In this document: positions 245-12,807 of the stretch, piece after piece
How the letters are laid out: every line of letters starts with the position of its first letter
Position numbering within the stretch: the stretch's first letter is position 1
Source: Chloroflexota bacterium
GTDB lineage: Bacteria > Chloroflexota > Anaerolineae > Anaerolineales > Villigracilaceae
Length of the DNA: 33,125 nucleotides
Assembly (NCBI GenBank): GCA_026390015.1
Contig: JAPLGS010000135.1
Coordinates: 1-33,125 of the forward strand
Direction: 5' to 3'
Position numbers and translations under genes: made by a program
The notes under the pieces: model-generated
What the model was told of the DNA's origin: nothing
The model's input: only the letters and a program-made list of their open reading frames with translations
The model's database searches: none

Positions 245-2704
245 TTAATGACTCAATGCCAGAGAGGCATTAAAGAATCGTCTGGCTTCCTCGTAGTCTC
301 CAAGTTCGCGGGCATACTCGCCAGCTTTTTCTAAATAATGAACAGCTTTGGGAATGTCGTCAGCAGCCTGCCAGTGGAGGGCTAACTCTGCATAAAGTGG
401 CATGGTGGAAGCGGCTTGCTCAAGCTGTTCTGCGATTGCGCGATGGATTTGACGCCTTTGGGCAAATAGCATAAGAGTGTAGGCAGTTTCGTGTGTCAAC
501 GGATCTTTGAAACTATAAGTTGCTGGCTCGGTCGAACGTTTAATGATCAGATCCAATTCAGCAAGGGTTTGCAAATGTTTCGGCAGATCATCACGGTCGA
601 TCAGCTCCGGATAAATGGCAGACAAGGTGGCGAAAGTGAAAACTTTACCGATCACGCTCGCAACTTTAAGCGTCAACTGCTCGGCCGGCGACAGGCGATC
701 AATGAGTAACACCCGCTCATCTGTACGGCCGAGCAAATTCGCCGATGAAATATTACCCTCGCGCAATTTACGGATCGGACGATAAATTGCAACCGGCTCC
801 GACTTTCCTTTGACCACAATAGGCGGCGGGTACTCGAATTCAAATTGTGTTTGTGTCGCTTGATAAATGGAGTCATTGCATAGAATTCCAGAACCTTGAC
901 CGCTGCCTCCAGCGGCCTGCATCAGACGGGCAGCCAGGTTGGTCTTATCCCCAATCGCGCCATAGGTACGATGGGCAGAACTTCCATAAGTTCCAACCCG
1001 CATTTGACCACGCGTCAACCCGATCTGGATATCAGTGATAAAAGCCAGCGACTTGGGCGGATCAGCGAGCTCCAATGCAGCTGACAGGGCTAGCGCCGCG
1101 TCGTCATGATGAGAAACAGGCGCACCAAAAACAATATAGAGATAATTGCCTTTATCACCAACGATCAATTGAATGAGTGCGCCATCGTAACGCGCAATCA
1201 CCTGATCAACCCATTGTACAAATGTATCGAGTTCTCCCCCTGCGTCGGCTTCAGTATCAAATGCCAGGCTTCCAAATTTTAGAAATAATGCAATGGCCGG
1301 TCTTAGTTCGGATAATAGATCGCTCTTCCCTGCGCGCACCTTTTCAAAAACAGACGGTAACATCCACGGCTTGGCCTGAGTCTCTGAAATGGCATTTTTA
1401 GGCAGGTCAGGCCAGGGAGTTGGAACTACATCCTGCATCAGCCCGGTGACTATGGCAAACTTATGTTCCTCACGCCATTCGGAAATAATAAATTTATCTT
1501 CGATCGAAGTGTAACCAGATGAAGCAACTAAAATTTCACCTTTACGCGCCGAAAGCTCTGTCTCAGCTAAAACGGCCAGTGTGTTCCCAGCCAAGACATC
1601 GATCAGGTGCTGATTTGGATCACCGACCAAAAAACGGCGTGCAGGACCGATAGCTATTGCCACTTTAATCTCCAGGGTAAGGGTTTTCCCGTTAGGCGTC
1701 ATGATTGTTGCAAACTGGCGCATGCCCGCCTGCATAGCCAGAGCACAAGCGATTGCGCGCTCGGCAGAGGTACCTGGTCGTTGAGTTCCCTTTAGGTTGA
1801 TATCATCAAACCAACAAGTGACCGCATCTCCGCTGAAAGTTATGATACTGCCTGCATAGCGATGTACCTCTTCAACTAAAGTAGTATATACACGGTTGAG
1901 ATGACGAATAACTTCCTCGGCGCCGCGATGTAAGCCCAATTCATTTGCCAGAGATTCGGTCAGTATTGTGAAGCCGGATACATCTGCAAACAAGGTCGCG
2001 CCTTGGGCGTACTCAGGCAAGCTTTTTCCCTGAGCCATCGCCTGACGGCGGTCCATGGGGATATAGATGGCAACTGTCTCGGCTTTTGCCATTTGCTTTT
2101 CTTCGATATCTAATTGCAGTTCTTGAAGTTGGCGCTTGAGGCGCTGTTCACGGGCGCGGACTTCCTCTTCCATTCTTCGGAAGACGCGCGCCAACTCGCC
2201 CAGTGCGTCAGTCCGAGCTGCCACCAGTTCGATCATCCCGGCTTGGTATGTGCCTTGTCCGATGGCACTGGCCGCATTGGTTAATTGTTCCACTTGGCGA
2301 AGATATTCGATTTCCTGATCGCGGAATCGTTTTTTAATCAAGCCGGCATCGATACGGGCCTGCAACAATACTGGTTCAAAGGGCTTGGGGAGGTAATCTT
2401 CCGCGCCTTGCTTGATCCCCTTTACAATGCTTTGCAGATCGTTATTGGCTGAAATGATGATGACAGGAATATCGCGCGTGGAGGGGGACGCCTTTAAACG
2501 TGATAAAACTTCGAAGCCATCCATAATGGGCATCATAATATCGAGCAATATAAGGTCAGGAGATTCGGCTTGCACCAGATCCAGCGCTTCCTGTCCATTG
2601 CTGGCGGAGATGGTTTCGTAATTTAACTCTTCCAATTCCTGTTCAAGATAATCGACATTATAGGGTTCGTCATCTACGATAAGTATCTTTGCACGTTCGT
2701 TCAT
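245..2704 (-). CDS. Response-regulator/class III nucleotidyl cyclase protein lacking its ATPase module
   Basis: Cytosolic 819-residue signalling protein. Visible domains in order are: a receiver domain (about 1-125; acidic pair D11/D12, phospho-acceptor D55 in LILLDIMMP, K107); a HAMP-like/coiled-coil linker (about 140-205, with ELARVFRRMEEEVRAREQ); a first class III cyclase domain (about 232-420; metal aspartates expected at D241 in FADVSGFT and D293 in SGDAV); and a second, degenerate cyclase half (about 468-645; 'FLKFGSLAFD' lacks the first metal Asp). This matches the paired catalytic halves of soluble adenylate cyclases. In that family a P-loop AAA/NB-ARC ATPase and many TPRs normally follow. 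Here LLGRTDER (658-665), the usual start of the ATPase, runs almost directly into LSPAEQLTLKVASVIG (671-686), its usual end, and only about one TPR remains before the stop. No Walker A is present. A plausible ribosome site (GGAG) precedes the ATG. It is the last gene of the kinase operon, separated from the receiver gene by a MITE-like insertion. Cyclase activity is inferred, not shown. Confidence 0.85.
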   Translation of the reverse strand: MNERAKILIVDDEPYNVDYLEQELEELNYETISASNGQEALDLVQAESPDLILLDIMMPIMDGFEVLSRLKASPSTRDIPVIIISANNDLQSIVKGIKQGAEDYLPKPFEPVLLQARIDAGLIKKRFRDQEIEYLRQVEQLTNAASAIGQGTYQAGMIELVAARTDALGELARVFRRMEEEVRAREQRLKRQLQELQLDIEEKQMAKAETVAIYIPMDRRQAMAQGKSLPEYAQGATLFADVSGFTILTESLANELGLHRGAEEVIRHLNRVYTTLVEEVHRYAGSIITFSGDAVTCWFDDINLKGTQRPGTSAERAIACALAMQAGMRQFATIMTPNGKTLTLEIKVAIAIGPARRFLVGDPNQHLIDVLAGNTLAVLAETELSARKGEILVASSGYTSIEDKFIISEWREEHKFAIVTGLMQDVVPTPWPDLPKNAISETQAKPWMLPSVFEKVRAGKSDLLSELRPAIALFLKFGSLAFDTEADAGGELDTFVQWVDQVIARYDGALIQLIVGDKGNYLYIVFGAPVSHHDDAALALSAALELADPPKSLAFITDIQIGLTRGQMRVGTYGSSAHRTYGAIGDKTNLAARLMQAAGGSGQGSGILCNDSIYQATQTQFEFEYPPPIVVKGKSEPVAIYRPIRKLREGNISSANLLGRTDERVLLIDRLSPAEQLTLKVASVIGKVFTFATLSAIYPELIDRDDLPKHLQTLAELDLIIKRSTEPATYSFKDPLTHETAYTLMLFAQRRQIHRAIAEQLEQAASTMPLYAELALHWQAADDIPKAVHYLEKAGEYARELGDYEEARRFFNASLALSH

Positions 2705-2730
2705 CTTCCAACTCCGGAATTACACTAAAG

Positions 2731-2852
2731 AGTCCGCTGCAAAAACCAGTTCTGCCACAGCCCACAGGGTAATAAGCACACAGAGAAAACAAGAGAAAAA
2801 AATTCAAAAACTCTGTGCCTTCTGTGGCTAAATGATCTTTTTGCAGTAGAGT
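2731..2852 (-). repeat. MITE-like element, copy 1 (122 bp)
   Basis: Read on the minus strand it starts ACTCTACTGCAAAAA and ends TTTTTGCAGCGGACT, an imperfect 15-bp terminal inverted repeat (12 of 15). It is flanked by a perfect 8-bp direct repeat, CACTAAAG, at 2723-2730 and 2853-2860, as expected for a target-site duplication. A near-identical element lies at 10490-10610 in the opposite orientation, with four substitutions and one single-base indel by my alignment. No ORF of note lies inside. It inserted two bases after the stop codon of the receiver gene at 2863 and ahead of the cyclase gene, so it now forms the spacer of this operon and may fold in the mRNA. Confidence 0.85.
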
Positions 2853-2862
2853 CACTAAAGGA

Positions 2863-3222
2863 TTACCGCAAATACTCTTTTAATTTTTTGAACAACTCTT
2901 CGTCATTGATCGGCTTGGTCAGGTAGTCATTACAGCCTGCCGCTTTTGCCATTTGTTCATGTGTGCTCATAGCGTGCGCCGATAGCCCAATGATCGGTAT
3001 GGACTTAAGCGCATCATTCGTACGGATGCGGCGCGTGGCTTCGTAGCCGTCTATGACTGGCAGGTTGATATCCATTAAGATCAGATCTGGCAGATGCTGG
3101 ATCGCCATCGCCACACCTTCTTCCCCATCATGGGCAACTACCAGGTTATGATCATCTTCGAGCAGTTGGGTAAGCAAGTCAATGTTTAGTTCGGTATCGT
3201 CTACGATTAAAATAGTTTTCAT
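2863..3222 (-). CDS. Single-domain response regulator (DivK/CheY-like)
   Basis: A stand-alone receiver domain of 119 residues with no output domain. MKTILIVDD supplies the acidic pair D8/D9, LPDLILMDINLPVIDG the phospho-acceptor D51, and YLTKPI the conserved K103. The ATG at 3222 is preferred over an upstream in-frame start because AGGAG (3232-3236 on the minus strand) stands just ahead of it. It lies 150 bases downstream of the four-GAF histidine kinase on the same strand, so it is the probable phosphotransfer partner of that kinase, perhaps as a shuttle to the REC domain of the cyclase protein that follows. That wiring is inferred from gene order. Overlaying a lost kinase-linked receiver (remnant at 3249-3407), it may have taken over that role. 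Confidence 0.9.
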   Translation of the reverse strand: MKTILIVDDTELNIDLLTQLLEDDHNLVVAHDGEEGVAMAIQHLPDLILMDINLPVIDGYEATRRIRTNDALKSIPIIGLSAHAMSTHEQMAKAAGCNDYLTKPINDEELFKKLKEYLR

Positions 3223-3248
3223 TTGGAAAATCTCCTTTGGGTAAACGT

Positions 3249-3407
3249 TCAAAGGTTCAACGCATTGCCGATCTCTTGCACGAAATTCTCGCCATCAAAG
3301 CCCTGCTTCTTCATTACAAAAGTGACACTTTCCTTTAGGCGTGTGGATTCTTCATCGGTCAATTCCTTGGTGCTAATGACGAGGCTCGGCAGGCGAAGTT
3401 GATGTAT
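3249..3407 (-). pseudogene. Remnant of a receiver-domain C-terminus, out of frame with the kinase
   Basis: Directly behind the kinase, one base-frame away, the minus strand reads [20 protein letters not shown] and on through VTFVMKKQGFDGENFVQEIG to a TGA at 3249-3251. '[14 protein letters not shown]' followed by a 'KKQGFDGENF' helix corresponds to the last strand and helix of receiver domains that end hybrid kinases (the usual form is P-x-V-x-x-T-A-K-x-L-T-x-E-E). The first part overlaps the last codons of the kinase frame. There is no start codon or ribosome site of its own. The simplest reading is that the kinase once carried a C-terminal receiver and that an out-of-frame deletion removed most of it. 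Confidence 0.6.
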
Positions 3408-6378
3408 TTTTTTCATCCACATAATGAATTGGCAATGTGAGCGTGAATGTTGAACCTACATCGGGCGTGCTCGTGACGGTTAAGTCTCCTCCCAAAAGAT
3501 GGGCGAGGTTTCTGCTAATGGCGAGACCCAAACCCGTGCCGCCGTATTGACGCGTGGTGCTGGTATCGGCTTGTTGGAATTCTTCAAAGATGCGGCCAAG
3601 TGATTCCTCGGTCATGCCGATGCCGCTATCGCTGACATCGACTATGAACAGGGCATCTGAGTGACAGACATTCATGCGGATGCTGCCCGCGTGTGTGAAC
3701 TTCGCGGCGTTGCTCAATAAATTGAGAATGATCTGCTTGATCTTATCCTGATCGGAATGCACTATGGGAATATCGGGATCTAAATTCTTTTCAAGAGTTA
3801 CATTTGGTTTGATCAACGGCGCGGCAACATTCGCGCATTGATCGGCAAGTATATTGATGTTGAAATTGGAGGCTTGCACATCCATGCGGCCCGCTTCGAT
3901 CTTGGCAATATCTAATACAGTGTTGATCAGACTCAGTAAATGCTCACCGCTGGATAACACTTTATCAAGATTATCCGTTTGTTTTTCAGGAAGCACACCT
4001 TCCGCCTTCTTGCGGACAATTCTAGTGAAGCCGATGATGGCGTTGAGCGGTGTACGCAGTTCGTGACTCATGTTGGCAAGAAAGGCGCTCTTGGCATTGT
4101 TTGCAGTCTCAGCGGCGGCGCGAGATTCCTGCGCTTCGTTGAGCAATTTCGCAGTATGGAGAGCGGCGCCCGCATTAGCAGCGATGGTGGTAAGCAGGCG
4201 CAGAGAATCTTCGTTGAACACGCCTTCTGCGGTTGTGTTTTGCACACTCAAGACACCGATCGTCTCTTTGCCTGCTTTGATCGGCACGCCGATATACGAT
4301 AATGACTCCTTGCCTATCCGCGTCACGCCAAGTTCTTTACTGCGCTCGTTCAGGTTCCTGTTGATGATCAACGATTCGCCGGTCTGCATGATCCTGCCTG
4401 TATGCCCTTCCCCGATTTTAAGCGTGGTAAAAGACTCTCCCACTTGATACGGGAAATGGATCAGATTGGTCCGCGGATCGAGCAGCGCCACATAGACAAT
4501 ATCTGCATTAAAGATCTCGCGCATCTGACGCCCGATAAGCTGGATCGTGCTATCGAGTTCAGTTTCCGCTACGAGCGCCTGACTAACCTTACTGATGGCG
4601 GCCAGTTCCGCAGCACGGTCTTCGGTCTCTTTGAGCAGGCGCTGGGTCTCATCAAAGAGACGCGCATTTTCGATGGCAACCCCCATGTTGGTGGATAATG
4701 TTTGCAAGAGACGCAGGTTATCTTCATTGAACGCGTTAGGTTTATTACTTTGAACATCCACCACACCCAACACCCGGTCACCAACCATGATCGGCACACC
4801 CATGTAAGACTGTGAGTCTTCAGTATTTATCGGCGCGGTGACATAGGATGCCGCCCCATTTTCATCCATTTCCTGTGCTGAGTTCAATAAAAGCGGACTG
4901 CGGCTAAGGATGATCTTTGAGGTCAATCCTTCTCCCAATTCCCACGGCGGTTCGTTCTCAAAATATTGACCGCTATAACTGTATACCAAATTAACCAGAT
5001 TCGTTTTTGGATCGTATAACAAAACGTCCGCGATCTCCGCCTTAAAAATATCGCGGACTTTATCGCCCACATTATAGGTAACAGTCCTGACATCTAATTT
5101 TCTGGTCATTGCTTCACCAACACTGTTAAGGATGGCCAATTCCGCATTGCGTGATTCAGTCTCTTTGAGCAGGCGCTGAGTCTCGTTGAAAAGACGCGCG
5201 TTTTCAAGCGCCACGCTCATGGCAGAAACAACAGTCTGCAATAAACGCACGTTCGAATGATTGAAAGCATTCTCTATCTCGTAGTTGCTAATGCTGACCA
5301 TGCCCAGAATGCGCTCCCCGACGATGATCGGTACCGCCATAAGGGATTTCTCCATCTGAGTGCCCGACAGCGTGAACGATTCGAGATCTGCCATACGTTC
5401 GGCTAATTTTTCATTGATCACCAGGGGTTGGCGTGTTGTGAAAACATGCTTCGAAATACCCTGCAAAGGAGATGGAGGAATTGTCATTTTCTCTCCGTGC
5501 TCCCGCATGTATAGGTAAAATACCTGATTGCTCTCGGGTGAAAATAAACGGATATCAATATCGAGGCTATTCATCACCTCGCTTAATTTATCACCGACCA
5601 ATTCGTAGATGGCTTCCATATCCAACTTGGAAGCCAACCCTGCCTGTACGCTGTTGATGATGGCAAGTTCGGCGGCGCGGTCTTCGGTGATCTTAAGCAG
5701 GCGTTGAGTCTCGTCAAAGAGACGCGCATTCTCGAGCGCCACACTCATGCTATTGGCGAGGGTCTCTAAAAGACGCACATCCGATTCGGGGAAAGCGTGC
5801 TCACGTTCAAAAGACTGCAGGGATATCACGCCCAACACATTTTCACCGGCGATAATCGGAACATATACCAACGATAAGGGGTCTTCGTCGCCTGCCATGG
5901 TATATGACCCCACCTCAGCACTGCGACGTTCCATATCCTCATTGACGACGATCGTTTGACGTTTGCGAATCGCTTCGCCTGAGAACGCACCAAGCTCCCC
6001 CTCAGGTAGATCACGGTATTTTATTCCGCGGTTAATCGCGTAAGGGAATGAAGTACGGTTTGTTGCCGGATTGTATATTCCGATTAAAAGAATGTTGGGA
6101 TTGAAAATCTCATACAGTTTATCGCCAACAAGGTCAATGATACCGGTGAAATCCAGCTTGGACACCAGTCCCATCTGAACACTATTGAGGATGGCAAGTT
6201 CATTTTCCCGTTGCGCTAATTGTTGTTCAACCAGCTGCAATTTATTCTTAGCTAAAGCAGATTTTCTTCCGCCGATAATTTTCTTGACAGGTGCAGAAGA
6301 TGGCTTTGGTTTGACTTTTATTGATTCTTTACTCTTAGGTTTAACAGTCTTAATTACGGTTGATGACTTTTTTGTCAT
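3373..6378 (-). CDS. Sensor histidine kinase with four tandem GAF domains
   Basis: A 1001-residue, probably soluble sensor kinase; no membrane segment is visible. A basic Lys-rich N-terminus (1-45) leads through a coiled coil to four GAF domains (about 60-220, 238-395, 414-575 and 594-745). These are joined by near-identical helices of the type [13 protein letters not shown], so the array looks like repeated duplication of one ~178-residue unit. HisKA follows with [12 protein letters not shown] (H772), then HATPase_c with N886/N890 (NLLSN), DSGIGM (917-922) and [10 protein letters not shown] (946 onwards), so all catalytic boxes are intact. The ATG at 6378 is chosen because AAGGAG precedes it. 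A longer frame to 6423 exists but lacks a good ribosome site. It ends with an aberrant tail ([14 protein letters not shown]) where a receiver domain seems to have been lost. First gene of an operon with the DivK-like receiver and REC-cyclase. The GAF ligands are unknown. Confidence 0.92.
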
Positions 6379-6488
6379 AGCCGCTCTCCTTTTTAACGAA
6401 GGCAATTGCATTATGTCAATCAAAGCAGATATTCATGCAAAAGCTGGTTCTTAATGTAGTTTACTTTATAACCCAGATGATTACAACC

Positions 6489-8610: not shown

Positions 8611-10311
8611 TCACTGTTTATTAATCGTGGTGCTCTTTGACGGAGTCGGCCCTACGCCGCCGCCCGAGGCAGTTGCCAGGTTCGTCACAGAAACAGCAGT
8701 CATGTCACCTGCGGTAATAGTGTAAGGAGCAGTACAGGATACCGTAGCACTTGGAGCCAGAGTGAGGGTCGCAATTCCGCAGTTGATTGGAGTGGCGCCA
8801 ATAAGTCCATCCGTCACGGTGAACTGAGCCGGGCCCAGAGCTACATTGCCAGTGTTCGTAATGATATAGGAAAAAGTGATTATATTACCGGCCGCGCTAT
8901 AGGTGGTTGGAGTGGCCGAGGTTGCCAGTGTCAGTGCTTTTACGGCTTTATTGATCGTGAAACTCTTGGCCGCAGAGGGTCCCACTCCGCCGCCCGAGGC
9001 GGTTGCGGTATTCGTTACGGAAGCAGCTGTCAGATTCGCTGCGGTGATCTTGTAAGGAACGGCGTTGCAGGAAACTTCCGCGTTTGGAGCCAGGCTGGTG
9101 GCGGCAGCGCCGCAGTTGAATGCCGCGCCAAAGAGATTGTCGGTTACTGTGAACTGAGTCGGGCCTAGAGTTGTCGTGCCAGTGTTTTTAATGACATATG
9201 AATATGTGATCACCTGGTCAACTGTGTCATAGATAACTGGGTTGGCCAGGGTGGTTACTGTTAGTGGAGTGGGAGTACCTGAAACATTAATCTTCACCCA
9301 GAACGACTTATTGCAACCGAGTGTTTTGTTACCAAAGGGGGCAAGCGCAAAATCAACACTCTTATCGTTTTTAAATTTCCAATAGCCGGTGTAGGCGCCC
9401 GCAGTGCTGGGCGCGGTGAGGTTAACGGAAATATCTACAACTGCGTTTGGGGCGACAGATAATGGCAAGGCCGCTGTATTTGGTCCGCCCATCTGATTAC
9501 TATCTGATTTCGTCGAGTCAAAAACAAGTTGATAGGCAGTTGTCCATGTAGTAGTGCCGATGTTCCGAAGCTGCCAATGCTTGGTAAATGTTTCGCCGGG
9601 TTTAAAAGTTGTGCCATCCTTAATAAGAAGGTCACTTTCAAACTTCGCGGAATCTGTACAACTCGTAGATGGAGTTGGAGGCACGCCACTACCGGATCTG
9701 GTGATGCGTGGACTGCCCCACAAAGCGCGGTCACCTGCGGCGGAACTATCATATGCAGAAACATACAGGATGAATTTTACGTTTTTTCCGGCAAGTGAAT
9801 TAAGACTGATGTTTACAGAGTAAGTATTGCCTTCATATTTTTCACGAAAGGGTGGTTCTTTCCATAGGGTTTTTACATCCGTCGAGCCATCAATTTGATA
9901 TTGAAGGCGGTACGCAACATAGCAAGTTGTTGCGCCAGTTTGGCATCCAATCCGGGATTGGAAACTGTCACCAGTTTGAACCAGGAACGGGGGATAGATC
10001 GCCTGAATAAAGCCGTTGGCCGCATTATTCGGTACAAATAATAAACCAGCTCCATAATCTTTTCCATCTTCAAATATGGGCTTGTCAAATTTGAGCGCAA
10101 AGCCGCTGGCATTCCCTTCCGTACCGGGGAAAGTTAGCGCACCTGCGCCGCTGGACCATATAACACCGCTGGCGCCGGTATCTGCGGCATGCGCGACGAA
10201 ATCATAGCCGATCGTTTCTGCCGCATACCCAACAGTAACTCCTGTTGGCATAAACGATAGAATTAAAACCAGTAAAAGAATTTTTGAAGCCAATTTCATT
10301 CGAAGTCGCAT
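8611..10311 (-). CDS. Secreted modular protein: unrecognised domain, NBR1-like Ig domain, two DUF11-type repeats
   Basis: A 566-residue secreted protein; ATG at 10311 follows AAGGAGG. A signal peptide (about 1-31, hydrophobic KILLLVLILSFMPTG, cleavage near AYAAE-like YAAET) leads to a ~170-residue domain (35-205) that I do not recognise but which recurs twice in the neighbour at 10673. Its marks are YDF, SGAGALTFPGT, PNN.NGFIQAIYP, GDSFQSRIGC and AGDRALW.SPRI. Next comes an NBR1-like Ig domain (218-343; FKPGETFTKHWQLRNIGTTTW, 'GYWKF', FWVKINV), then two ~105-residue repeats (349-455 and 460-563) of the DUF11/conserved-repeat type (YVIKNTGTTTLGPTQFTVTD). The last repeat ends almost at the stop with no anchor, so it is presumably released or held non-covalently. 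A cell-surface adhesion or glycan-binding role is plausible but not shown. It has its own promoter candidate. Confidence 0.82.
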   Translation of the reverse strand: MRLRMKLASKILLLVLILSFMPTGVTVGYAAETIGYDFVAHAADTGASGVIWSSGAGALTFPGTEGNASGFALKFDKPIFEDGKDYGAGLLFVPNNAANGFIQAIYPPFLVQTGDSFQSRIGCQTGATTCYVAYRLQYQIDGSTDVKTLWKEPPFREKYEGNTYSVNISLNSLAGKNVKFILYVSAYDSSAAGDRALWGSPRITRSGSGVPPTPSTSCTDSAKFESDLLIKDGTTFKPGETFTKHWQLRNIGTTTWTTAYQLVFDSTKSDSNQMGGPNTAALPLSVAPNAVVDISVNLTAPSTAGAYTGYWKFKNDKSVDFALAPFGNKTLGCNKSFWVKINVSGTPTPLTVTTLANPVIYDTVDQVITYSYVIKNTGTTTLGPTQFTVTDNLFGAAFNCGAAATSLAPNAEVSCNAVPYKITAANLTAASVTNTATASGGGVGPSAAKSFTINKAVKALTLATSATPTTYSAAGNIITFSYIITNTGNVALGPAQFTVTDGLIGATPINCGIATLTLAPSATVSCTAPYTITAGDMTAVSVTNLATASGGGVGPTPSKSTTINKQ

Positions 10312-10418: not shown

Positions 10419-10489
10419 CCCTTGATGAGAATTACTGGGATATCCAGGAAGGTTCCGGTATCAAGTTTTTTTACGCGATTCCAGACATG

Positions 10490-10610
10490 ACTCTACTGCA
10501 AAAAGGTCATTTAGCCACAGAGGGCACAGAGTTTTTGATTTTTTTCTCTTGTTTTCTCTGTGTGCTTATTACCCTGTGGGCTGTGGCAGAGCTGGTTTTT
10601 GCAGTGGACT
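10490..10610 (+). repeat. MITE-like element, copy 2 (121 bp)
   Basis: Second copy of the element at 2731-2852, in the opposite orientation. It runs from ACTCTACTGCAAAAA to TTTTTGCAGTGGACT, whose ends match as inverted repeats at 13 of 15 positions. The adjoining 8-mers CAGACATG (10482-10489) and CAGGCATA (10611-10618) agree at 6 of 8 positions, which fits an aged target duplication. Internally, TTAGCCACAGA, GGCACAGAG and CTCTGTGTGC give further partial self-complementarity. It lies between a terminator and a promoter and does not interrupt a gene. Confidence 0.82.
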
Positions 10611-10620
10611 CAGGCATAAT

Positions 10621-10672: not shown

Positions 10673-12730
10673 TTACGGAGTGGCTGTTGGGGTGGCCGTG
10701 GATGTAGCTGTTACGGTAGCGGTAGCGGTTGCCGTGGATGTTGGAGTGGCGGTGTTCGTTGCGGTGGCAGCTACCAACCCGGCATTAAAGATCATCGGTG
10801 CAACCCAGAGAGCGCGGTCACCTGTTGGCGAGCCGTTAGAAAGAATGGTGAGGATAAATTTTATATCGGTACCCACAAGTGCTGCGAGGCTCTGATCAGC
10901 GGTACCATAACTGCCTTCATTTATTTCGCCAAAAAACCATAAGGTCTGAATGGTGGAACTGCCGGAAATGGAATAATCCAGGCGGAAGGTTACATTACAC
11001 TGCGCACTGCCTTCGCAACTAACAAGCGAGCGGAACTTATCACCGCTTTTCACTGTATAAGCTGGATAGATGCCTTGAATATAACCATTAGTAACATTCT
11101 GAGGGAAGGTGACCAAGCCAGTGCGATTATCGTTGACGCCATTCTCCAGCCTGGAAGGATTGACCTTCAAAACAAATCCTTTTGCATCACCATCAGTGCC
11201 GGGGCATGGTAATGATCCGGCTCCGCTGAACCAGGTCGCTGCGCACACGTTCGAAACAAAATCATAGCTTGTGCCGGCGATGGGAGTAGCTGTCGCCCCA
11301 GATGTGGGAGATGGGCCGGGTGTCACTGCTGTACCAGATACTTTGATCTCAACCCAGAATGATTTTGTGCCGCCGGTGCCAATTCCAAATGGAACGCCTG
11401 CGCTAGTCTTAAGTTTCCAGTAGCCGCGATAGGTAGCGGCGGCCGCGGGTGCGGTCAGGTTGATGCTGATATCAACAGTTTGGCCGGCCGCTACGGTCGT
11501 GGGGATGACCGCCGGCTCGAGGCCGCCCATCTTCTCGCCTGTGTCAAAGATCAAGCTGTAGTTCGTCCAGGAGCAGGTGCCAATATTCTTAAGGCGCCAG
11601 GTCTTTAAGAAAGGAGCATTCGGCTGGAAGGAGGTGCCATCCGGTACGTTCACATCGGATACGAATTGAGCAAGATTAGTACAACCAGAAACAGTGGTTG
11701 CGGTTTTAGTTGGAGTAATCGTAGGGGGCGTTCCCGTAACGGTGGGAGCCGGCGTATTTGTTGCAACCACGCCGCCCGAACGCGAAATGATCGGGTTTAC
11801 CCACAAGGAACGGTCACCCGTTGGTGAACCATACGCCGAAATAACGAGAATAAACTTTACGTCCTTACCCGCAAATGAACTCAGATCAAGATTTACATTG
11901 TATGTCCAGCCTTCATATTTTTCACGGAAGGTCCAGAAGGTTTTCACTGGATCAGTACCGATCTGGTAATCCAGGCGATAAGCCACGTAGCAAGCGGTAG
12001 CGTTAAATTCGCAGCCAATGGTCGACTGGAAGCGGTCACCACTTTGTACTTTGAAGATTGGATAAATCCCTTGAACATACCCATTGTTGACATTGTTTGG
12101 AGCAAGCAGCAATCCAGCCAGCGAAGATTCGACTCCGCTTTCGAATTTGGGTTTATCCAATTTAAGCGCAAAGCCGTTGGCGTTCCCGTCCGTACCGGGG
12201 AATGTGAATGCACCCGCGCCAGTAGACCAGGTCGCATCGCCTGCCTTTGCAGTAAAATCATAGCCTGTACCGGCGGAGGGCGATGAACCTACATTGATCT
12301 CAACCCAAAAAGTACTGTTGGCGTTGGAACCTATTCCGAACTCGCCGCCTGCAGTGCTCTTAAGTTTATAGTAGCCGAAGTAGTGACCCGCAGCGGCAGG
12401 CGCGGTCATATCCACTGAGATATCAACTGTGGCGCCAACAGCGACAGCTGTGGGAAGTGCCGCCGAGGCGGGCGCACCCATCTTCTCTCCGCTTGCAAAG
12501 ATCAAAGAGACATCGCTCCAGGCGCATGTCCCGATATTCTTAAGTCTCCATGTCTTTTTGAAAGCCGCACCTGGTGCATAATTCGTGCCATCGGGTACGG
12601 TCACATCAGAAACAAATTGTGCCCAATTACATACTGCGGCTTTAGCAGGTTGCACAGCCGCAGCAGGTAGGATGGAAAGCATCAAGGCAAGTAAAAGCAG
12701 AGATGTTGCAAGTTTCGATAGAAATTTCAT
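10673..12730 (-). CDS. Secreted protein with duplicated NBR1-like Ig plus unrecognised domain, Thr/Ala/Pro tail
   Basis: A 685-residue secreted protein. The ATG at 12730 has GGAGG five bases ahead. A signal peptide (about 1-33, LATSLLLLALMLSILPAAA) precedes an NBR1-like Ig domain (about 33-147), an unrecognised domain (156-317), a Thr/Pro linker (318-349), a second NBR1-like Ig (350-465), a second linker, and a second copy of the unrecognised domain (488-650). Thus the whole body is a tandem duplication of a ~320-residue unit. The unrecognised domain is the one seen once in the 8611 gene; shared marks are YDF, GAG.FTFPGTDG, NGYVQGIYP, FRLDY/YRLDY and SPTGDR.LWV.P. The C-terminal copy has diverged more. 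The final 34 residues are nearly all Thr, Ala, Pro, Ser and Val and lead to no further domain, which is unusual because such runs normally connect domains. The tail may be glycosylated or span the cell envelope. The function is unknown, and surface binding is the likeliest role. Confidence 0.82.
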   Translation of the reverse strand: MKFLSKLATSLLLLALMLSILPAAAVQPAKAAVCNWAQFVSDVTVPDGTNYAPGAAFKKTWRLKNIGTCAWSDVSLIFASGEKMGAPASAALPTAVAVGATVDISVDMTAPAAAGHYFGYYKLKSTAGGEFGIGSNANSTFWVEINVGSSPSAGTGYDFTAKAGDATWSTGAGAFTFPGTDGNANGFALKLDKPKFESGVESSLAGLLLAPNNVNNGYVQGIYPIFKVQSGDRFQSTIGCEFNATACYVAYRLDYQIGTDPVKTFWTFREKYEGWTYNVNLDLSSFAGKDVKFILVISAYGSPTGDRSLWVNPIISRSGGVVATNTPAPTVTGTPPTITPTKTATTVSGCTNLAQFVSDVNVPDGTSFQPNAPFLKTWRLKNIGTCSWTNYSLIFDTGEKMGGLEPAVIPTTVAAGQTVDISINLTAPAAAATYRGYWKLKTSAGVPFGIGTGGTKSFWVEIKVSGTAVTPGPSPTSGATATPIAGTSYDFVSNVCAATWFSGAGSLPCPGTDGDAKGFVLKVNPSRLENGVNDNRTGLVTFPQNVTNGYIQGIYPAYTVKSGDKFRSLVSCEGSAQCNVTFRLDYSISGSSTIQTLWFFGEINEGSYGTADQSLAALVGTDIKFILTILSNGSPTGDRALWVAPMIFNAGLVAATATNTATPTSTATATATVTATSTATPTATP

Positions 12731-12807
12731 TTCTTCCTCCATTCAATACACACACATTATAAGAACGTAAAATAATCCAAAAAGTTCCCTGACCATACGC
12801 TGTCACT

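Follow-up and report, generated by a model that had tools for sequence, protein, structure and literature searches.

The DNA analyzed here, a stretch of 33,125 bp (the window) from an uncultured Chloroflexota bacterium, is contig 78 of a 4.3-Mb genome that is assembled in 177 contigs and 95% complete. Among its minus-strand genes is an operon in which a GAF-domain histidine kinase gene (3373-6423) lies upstream of RR1, coding for a receiver domain protein (2863-3252; a listed open reading frame of 129 amino acids with a TTG start), which is followed by RR2 (245-2704), coding for a protein of 819 amino acids. In the RR2 product a receiver is fused to a soluble-adenylyl-cyclase-like region, recognized by phmmer (4cm2, E 6.6e-24), while a Pfam scan of the same protein recognized the receiver and not the cyclase part. 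An earlier, sequence-only reading of the window had called this gene a cyclase and had placed an inserted block directly past the stop codon of the receiver gene, and both statements are borne out. The block is a MITE of 124 bp (copy 1, 2730-2853). A second copy of 123 bp (copy 2, 10489-10611) has the opposite orientation. The minus-strand genes on its two sides (8611-10311 and 10673-12742) encode N_BRCA1_IG domain proteins, one of which also has DUF7507 repeats.

Copy 1 has the features by which MITEs are recognized: a length of 124 bp, imperfect terminal inverted repeats of 16 bp, and no transposase gene, with no open reading frame of 80 or more amino acids inside it. The left terminal repeat, GAGTCCGCTGCAAAAA, occupies 2730-2745 on the plus strand, and the right terminal repeat, GACTCTACTGCAAAAA on the minus strand, occupies 2838-2853; read along the plus strand, the element runs from GAGTC to GAGTC (inverted repeats GAGTC/GACTC). 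A target duplication, ACTAAA, adjoins it flush on the left (2724-2729) and on the right (2854-2859). The imperfect terminal repeats and the lack of an open reading frame had been correctly noticed before, in a block of 122 bp at 2731-2852 whose limits are replaced by those given here. Likewise, the 8-mer CACTAAAG does stand on both sides (2723-2730 and 2853-2860), as had been claimed, but it is not an 8-bp duplication, as its extra C and G are element bases at one junction and chance matches at the other, and the real target is the 6-bp ACTAAA. The near-identical second copy had also been seen, at about 10490-10610 and bounded by 8-mers agreeing at six of eight positions; with the limits corrected to 10489-10611, its flanks are AGACAT on the left (10483-10488) and AGGCAT on the right (10612-10617), which match at five of six positions.

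The length of the duplication emerges most clearly from a set of 43 distinct insertions, 42 from 10 genomes of the genus and one from G208, which belongs to another class of the phylum. Exact duplications of 4, 5, 6, 7, 8, and 9 bp were counted in 0, 0, 26, 4, 0, and 0 of these insertions, respectively, and a target duplication of 8 bp is accordingly rejected. A 6-bp duplication with at most one mismatch is present in 36 of the 43, as compared with control values of 0.7% (exact) and 7.6% (at most one mismatch) when left and right flanks of different insertions are paired at this length. The exact 6-bp targets begin with A in 22 of 26 cases and end with T in 25 of 26. Three insertions, the copy in G008 (L065), L183, and L189, have neither five of six nor seven of seven matching flank bases. 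These counts cover part of the end matches: paired ends were retrieved in a targeted way from G001, G033, G036, and G065 and otherwise came with matched loci, many ends in G020, G034, G070, G077, and G080 were left out, and L176, a paired element whose right flank is cut by a contig end, was omitted from the duplication count.

Comparison of the block with its own genome returned 28 matching loci. Allowing at most one mismatch, the end consensus GASTCYRCTGCAAAAA was found 26 times in that genome, 13 times on each strand, the reversed control giving no match, and one or more end matches are present in at least 41 of the 57 genomes of the genus. Within the own genome there are 12 insertions with both ends; one of these is the 1807-bp insertion sequence described below, and the 11 that have no transposase all show five or six of six bases duplicated. 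Many copies with the same ends and with flanking duplications (of 6 bp, exact in the 26 of 43 cases given above) are what the earlier reading had named as support for a transposable element. Nine of the own copies differ from their 124-bp consensus at 1 to 16 positions, the value of 16 counting an 11-base gap; copy 1 differs from it at 3 positions, and a 125-bp copy in G008, with no duplication in its flanks, at 9. Stop-to-stop frames through 12 empty sites reach at most 284 amino acids, at L005, whose insertion touches the end of a gene; the next longest measure 208, 198, and 185 amino acids, and the others 37 to 123 amino acids. As these frames are mostly short, the insertions look mostly intergenic, a statement that applies to the set rather than to each member.

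A full-length insertion sequence with the same terminal repeats, also foreseen in the earlier reading, is found in the same genome, where the ends recur 1807 bp apart (G000:C87:59592-61398) with ACATAT on both sides and an uninterrupted open reading frame of 572 amino acids. Compared with the 16-bp ends of the MITE, one of its ends has 15 identical bases and the other 14. These approximately 16 bases at the ends are all that MITE and insertion sequence have in common, and the MITE interior is therefore not simply a deleted copy of the insertion sequence. The transposase, the single match in its own genome, has DDE transposase domains. The best curated model for it is IS1182 (NCBIfam, E 4e-34), and because its 118.4 bits fall below the cut-off of 270 for that model, the element is named here only “IS1182-like.” Of 15 plasmid relatives among the matches listed (the best 15 of 72), six are annotated as IS1182 family transposases, at 24-27% identity; the closest among the plasmid matches listed, at 30-35% identity, are annotated just as “transposase.” A relative of 1816 bp in G008, flanked by ACCCCT on both sides, encodes a protein 87% identical to that of the insertion sequence. 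Matches to the transposase occur in eight of the 57 genomes of the genus, its own included, many of them as short pieces at contig ends. In G020 and G080, many contig ends match the N- or C-terminal residues of the transposase, as would be expected if a repeated insertion sequence had broken the assemblies, and its copy number in these two genomes is probably high. A transposase coded elsewhere had been proposed as the mover of the block, and the protein encoded at this locus is a candidate for that role. Judged by the shared ends, it is the likely mover of the MITE, acting in trans, although the real one could be a different transposase that was lost or is absent from the 95%-complete assembly.

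The interior of the MITE presents a quite different kind of pattern. It is a non-coding, imperfect palindrome with a 9-bp rhythm of CCACAGAGnnCACAGAGA-like units, whose left arm (2754-2786, plus strand) contains the 24-base signature GCCACAGCCCACAGGGTAATAAGC that is common to the TIR-2 and TIR-3 families considered below, and whose right arm, CTCTGTGCCTTCTGTGGC (2811-2828, plus strand), pairs with the left arm in predicted folds. Two CRCRRAG motifs exactly 9 bp apart are present in 31 of 40 transposase-less elements (39 of the genus and L176, with L250 left out) and in none of the elements in each of 100 dinucleotide-shuffled sets, a comparison to be read with the understanding that the motif was picked after the elements had been viewed and that copies within one genome are not independent. 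Within a range of 5 to 15 bp, the distances between paired motifs are 9 (49 times), 8 (12 times), and 10 (once), with no others. The dialect of the core varies with the species, being CACAGAG in the own genome, CACAAAG/CACGAAG in G036 and G033, CACGAAG in G065, and CGCGAAG in G001. The element of G208 (L250), from another class, has these same ends around a CACAGAG interior and is flanked directly by a 6-bp duplication, AATAAT.

The same core is found between ends of more than one kind. A signature, CACA(G/A/T)GGTAATAA, is present in 23 of the 28 own-genome loci and absent from five. By their ends, the loci that bear it divide into 11 of TIR-1 (the family of copy 1), 8 of TIR-2 (TATACYRARCRCGG...), and 4 of TIR-3 (CCTCTTGCRNAAGT...), and in several of them just one end is recognizable. 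The longest match between family 1 and the other two is the 24-base GCCACAGCCCACAGGGTAATAAGC (in a comparison of 9 family-1, 5 TIR-2, and 4 TIR-3 loci), and TIR-2 and TIR-3 loci have identical stretches of up to 35 bases. Ends of the TIR-2 and TIR-3 kinds are present in 13 and 17 of the 57 genomes of the genus, respectively, often as short paired elements. No TIR-2 or TIR-3 transposase was found among the open reading frames beside 21 unpaired ends, inspected by eye over their first 60 residues, and the families are accordingly termed “unrelated” with respect to end sequence only. The TIR-2 element looks like a TA-inserting element of the IS630 type, judging by its terminal TA and by the chimera described next.

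How a core might pass from one set of ends to another is illustrated by a chimeric locus of the own genome, L013 (G000:C134). It starts with 60 family-1 bases, 58 of them identical, then tracks L212, a TIR-2 element, over 122 bases that include two differences, as far as a terminal TATA, and re-enters family 1 at TAAATCACC. The simplest history for this arrangement would be insertion of a TIR-2 element into a TA of a TIR-1 MITE, after which their homologous cores recombined. A TIR-3 element nested inside a TIR-1 element (L189) was likewise found by eye in G036. Taken with the chimera, this nested element makes it plausible that cores are exchanged by nested insertion and then recombination, in which the order of events would be the one just given.

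A further issue for understanding these elements is that palindromes with the 9-bp rhythm also exist without recognizable transposon ends. A strict detector was applied to arbitrary stretches of 11 genomes of the genus, 537,411 bases in all; it recognizes just 13 of the 40 known elements, and neither copy in the window is among them. It returned nine palindromes (four in G007, three in G036, and one each in G032 and G015) and none in the reversed control; in none of the nine did an inverted repeat outside the arms rise above the 95% level of random flanks. Two cores of the own genome, L230 (G000:C151:105321) and L205 (G000:C51:52040), also lack recognizable MITE ends, and by eye both lie just past apparent stop codons. 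Across the phylum, the exact motif CCACAGAGNNCACAGAGA is patchily distributed, occurring in 27 of 400 genomes, the richest of which has 59 copies (the reversed control gave three matches in two genomes), and some of these matches are tandem arrays (G208) or non-palindromic. The array in G208 (G208:C1:1517606-1518564 and on), in a genome of another class, repeats CCACAGAGAGCACAGAGA at a spacing of 96 bp or approximately twice that.

One way to account for such palindromes is that the core is itself mobile, whether REP-like or otherwise, and entered the three MITE families independently, so that the ends are incidental carriers. The nine palindromes without inverted repeats beyond their arms and the patchy occurrence of the exact motif argue for this explanation, which is nevertheless judged rather unlikely, as no duplication or conserved end has been demonstrated for a stand-alone core, the core shows no enrichment in a small sample of Y1 transposase loci, and L346, among the nine, is by eye part of a larger repeat. 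In two places of G036, L346 (370-416) and the insert at the RR1-RR2 junction (G036:C50; L165, approximately 492-547), a CACGAAG/CACAAAG palindrome is embedded in a longer common repeat in which no obvious terminal inverted repeats are visible. As for a REP-like identity in particular, inspection by eye revealed neither a GTAG nor a CGTC tag at the ends of the palindrome; the right MITE end (CAGTAGAGTC), which lies beyond the core, does contain a GTAG. The 20 loci of Y1 (RAYT-type) transposases among the matches listed have one motif pair in 62,182 bases as compared with 29 in 537,411 elsewhere, which are small numbers, and mobilization of the core by a REP/RAYT system is unsupported. A broader conjecture, to which similarly low odds are given, is that palindromes of this rhythm (CCACAGAGnnCACAGAGA and the CACAAAG, CACGAAG, and CGCGAAG dialects) constitute an undescribed class of self-spreading modules that have repeatedly been captured as the interior of MITEs of unrelated transposases, with ends and core interchangeable, and that may bind a common host protein or aid the transposition or survival of the MITEs. 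Repeats of this kind may have a link to GxxExxY proteins.

The junction at which copy 1 is inserted offers a different perspective. Empty orthologous sites, whose presence the sequence-only reading would have counted in favor of transposition, are found at 15 RR1-RR2 junctions in 14 genomes of the genus, with gaps of about 3 to 103 bp; six of these gaps were measured (11-83 bp), and the other nine junctions were assigned by eye, five of them with a computed gap. The stretches inspected by eye numbered 16, of which four (G018, G028, G030, and G010) did not show the RR1-RR2 junction and one (G068) is a repeat of an earlier one. By eye, the element-free junctions of G004, G015, and G001 contain short GC-rich palindromes of a different kind. 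Unrelated inserts occupy the same junction in G036 (193 bp), G031 (about 200 bp), and G029 (220 bp), all with palindromic arms in the 9-bp rhythm. Those of G031:C208 (L331) and G029:C6 (L326), with ends TTATCGGAAATAA and GAGYGTTTCTTAA, look by eye like two further kinds of MITE.

Such recurrence raises the question of whether copy 1 has been kept as an intercistronic RNA element, its hairpin altering mRNA processing or uncoupling translation of the cyclase from that of the receiver gene. The transcribed strand of the insert does fold into a long hairpin (-40.3 kcal/mol, z -2.1), and three genomes carry different palindromic inserts of 193-220 bp at this junction. Any inverted-repeat element folds, however, and the opposite strand has the more unusual fold (z -4.4); no intrinsic terminator was predicted in 2600-3000, and no Rfam family matched the window at its gathering score. 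Moreover, the 15 orthologous junctions do without such an insert, and palindromes are so frequent in some genomes that their recurrence at one junction may be chance, for which reason a convergent function of the recurrent inserts was set aside. Two promoter-like matches on the plus strand (2623-2680, where a mean of 0.7 is expected) lie outside the element. An RNA role between the receiver and cyclase genes is thus possible but unsupported, and retention for such a role appears quite improbable; the element is taken as a selfish insertion, probably with no selected function.

The remaining alternative, that the two copies in the window belong to a larger segmental duplication and are not a transposable element, has a negligible probability, as the flush 6-bp duplications in most of the 43 insertions speak against it and the 300-bp flanks of 10 copies (the nine own copies and that of G008) have nothing in common, their best local score being 31, a value without a random control. 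Finding the block only within longer duplicated segments would have contradicted the earlier reading, and these unrelated flanks are the opposite of that. The block is a real, recently mobile MITE family, the recent mobility proposed at the outset being supported by copies at unrelated sites, by the duplications, and by junctions without the element.

Taken together, the observed ends, duplications, copies, partner insertion sequence, element-free junctions, common core, and single chimera are best explained, with high confidence, by a MITE whose ends are substrates of an IS1182-like DDE transposase acting in trans on 6-bp ANNNNT targets and whose core is exchangeable with those of other MITE-like families. 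The transposase encoded at G000:C87:59592-61398 would act in trans on the 16-bp ends of the MITE, which would enter a 6-bp target having A first and T last and leave a 6-bp duplication. Exchange of the core with MITE-like families having other ends would proceed by nested insertion and subsequent recombination in the common arms.

Several known systems resemble this family in part. MITEPye1 of Paracoccus yeei has ends that match an IS1182-family insertion sequence and direct repeats of 4 bp (PMC11578231), and for the ISMac2-linked MITEs of Methanosarcina acetivorans direct repeats of 4 bp (one set) or none are listed (PMC3852290). Both are, like the family described here, short, non-coding elements with IS1182-family-matching ends in a few to a dozen or so copies, and MITEPye1 likewise folds into long stem-loops; they differ in having direct repeats of 4 bp or none, in contrast to 6 bp here, and the descriptions consulted do not mention a core common to MITEs with other ends. 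The sole IS1182-family element in a table of Paracoccus elements also has 4 bp (PMC3281130). The IS1182 family is termed heterogeneous in another report, according to which IS1272 replaces palindromes without target duplication (PMC5678879). With this family, IS1272 included, the insertion sequence described here shares a DDE transposase, IS1182 as the best curated model, and short inverted ends of 16 bp; it differs from the family in that its transposase lies under the model cut-off (118 versus 270 bits) and from IS1272 in its 6-bp duplication.

REP palindromes, tagged with GTAG or CGTC and with GTAG repeats reported in Chloroflexi among others (PMC3733652), are also dispersed palindromes of intergenic DNA, whereas the core described here has a 9-bp rhythm, by eye no such end tag, and no enrichment at the 20 Y1 loci covered. 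A string of the repeat occurs in a PCR primer for a promoter region of Bacteroides fragilis, given in PMC3090145. In limited searches outside subscription journals and ISfinder, neither the core with its 9-bp rhythm nor its occurrence in more than one MITE family was found described. TIMEs, miniature elements of the Tn3 family, are non-autonomous and mosaic-forming as well, but have Tn3 ends, and their mosaics arise when pairs of elements mobilize the DNA between them (PMC4133298) rather than when families whose ends are unrelated exchange cores.

MITEs of the IS1182 type, and mosaic miniature elements in the case of Tn3, are thus already in print. Added to them here are an IS1182-like MITE family with 6-bp duplications from uncultured Chloroflexota, the presence in a single genome of one palindromic core in elements with three unrelated kinds of ends, and the recurrence of the same ends with 9-bp-rhythm cores throughout a genus and, in one instance, in a different class of its phylum. 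These draw attention to an abundant class of repeats, the palindromes of 9-bp rhythm, and, together with the chimera, which preserves a likely route of exchange, provide a testable case of modular evolution in bacterial MITEs.
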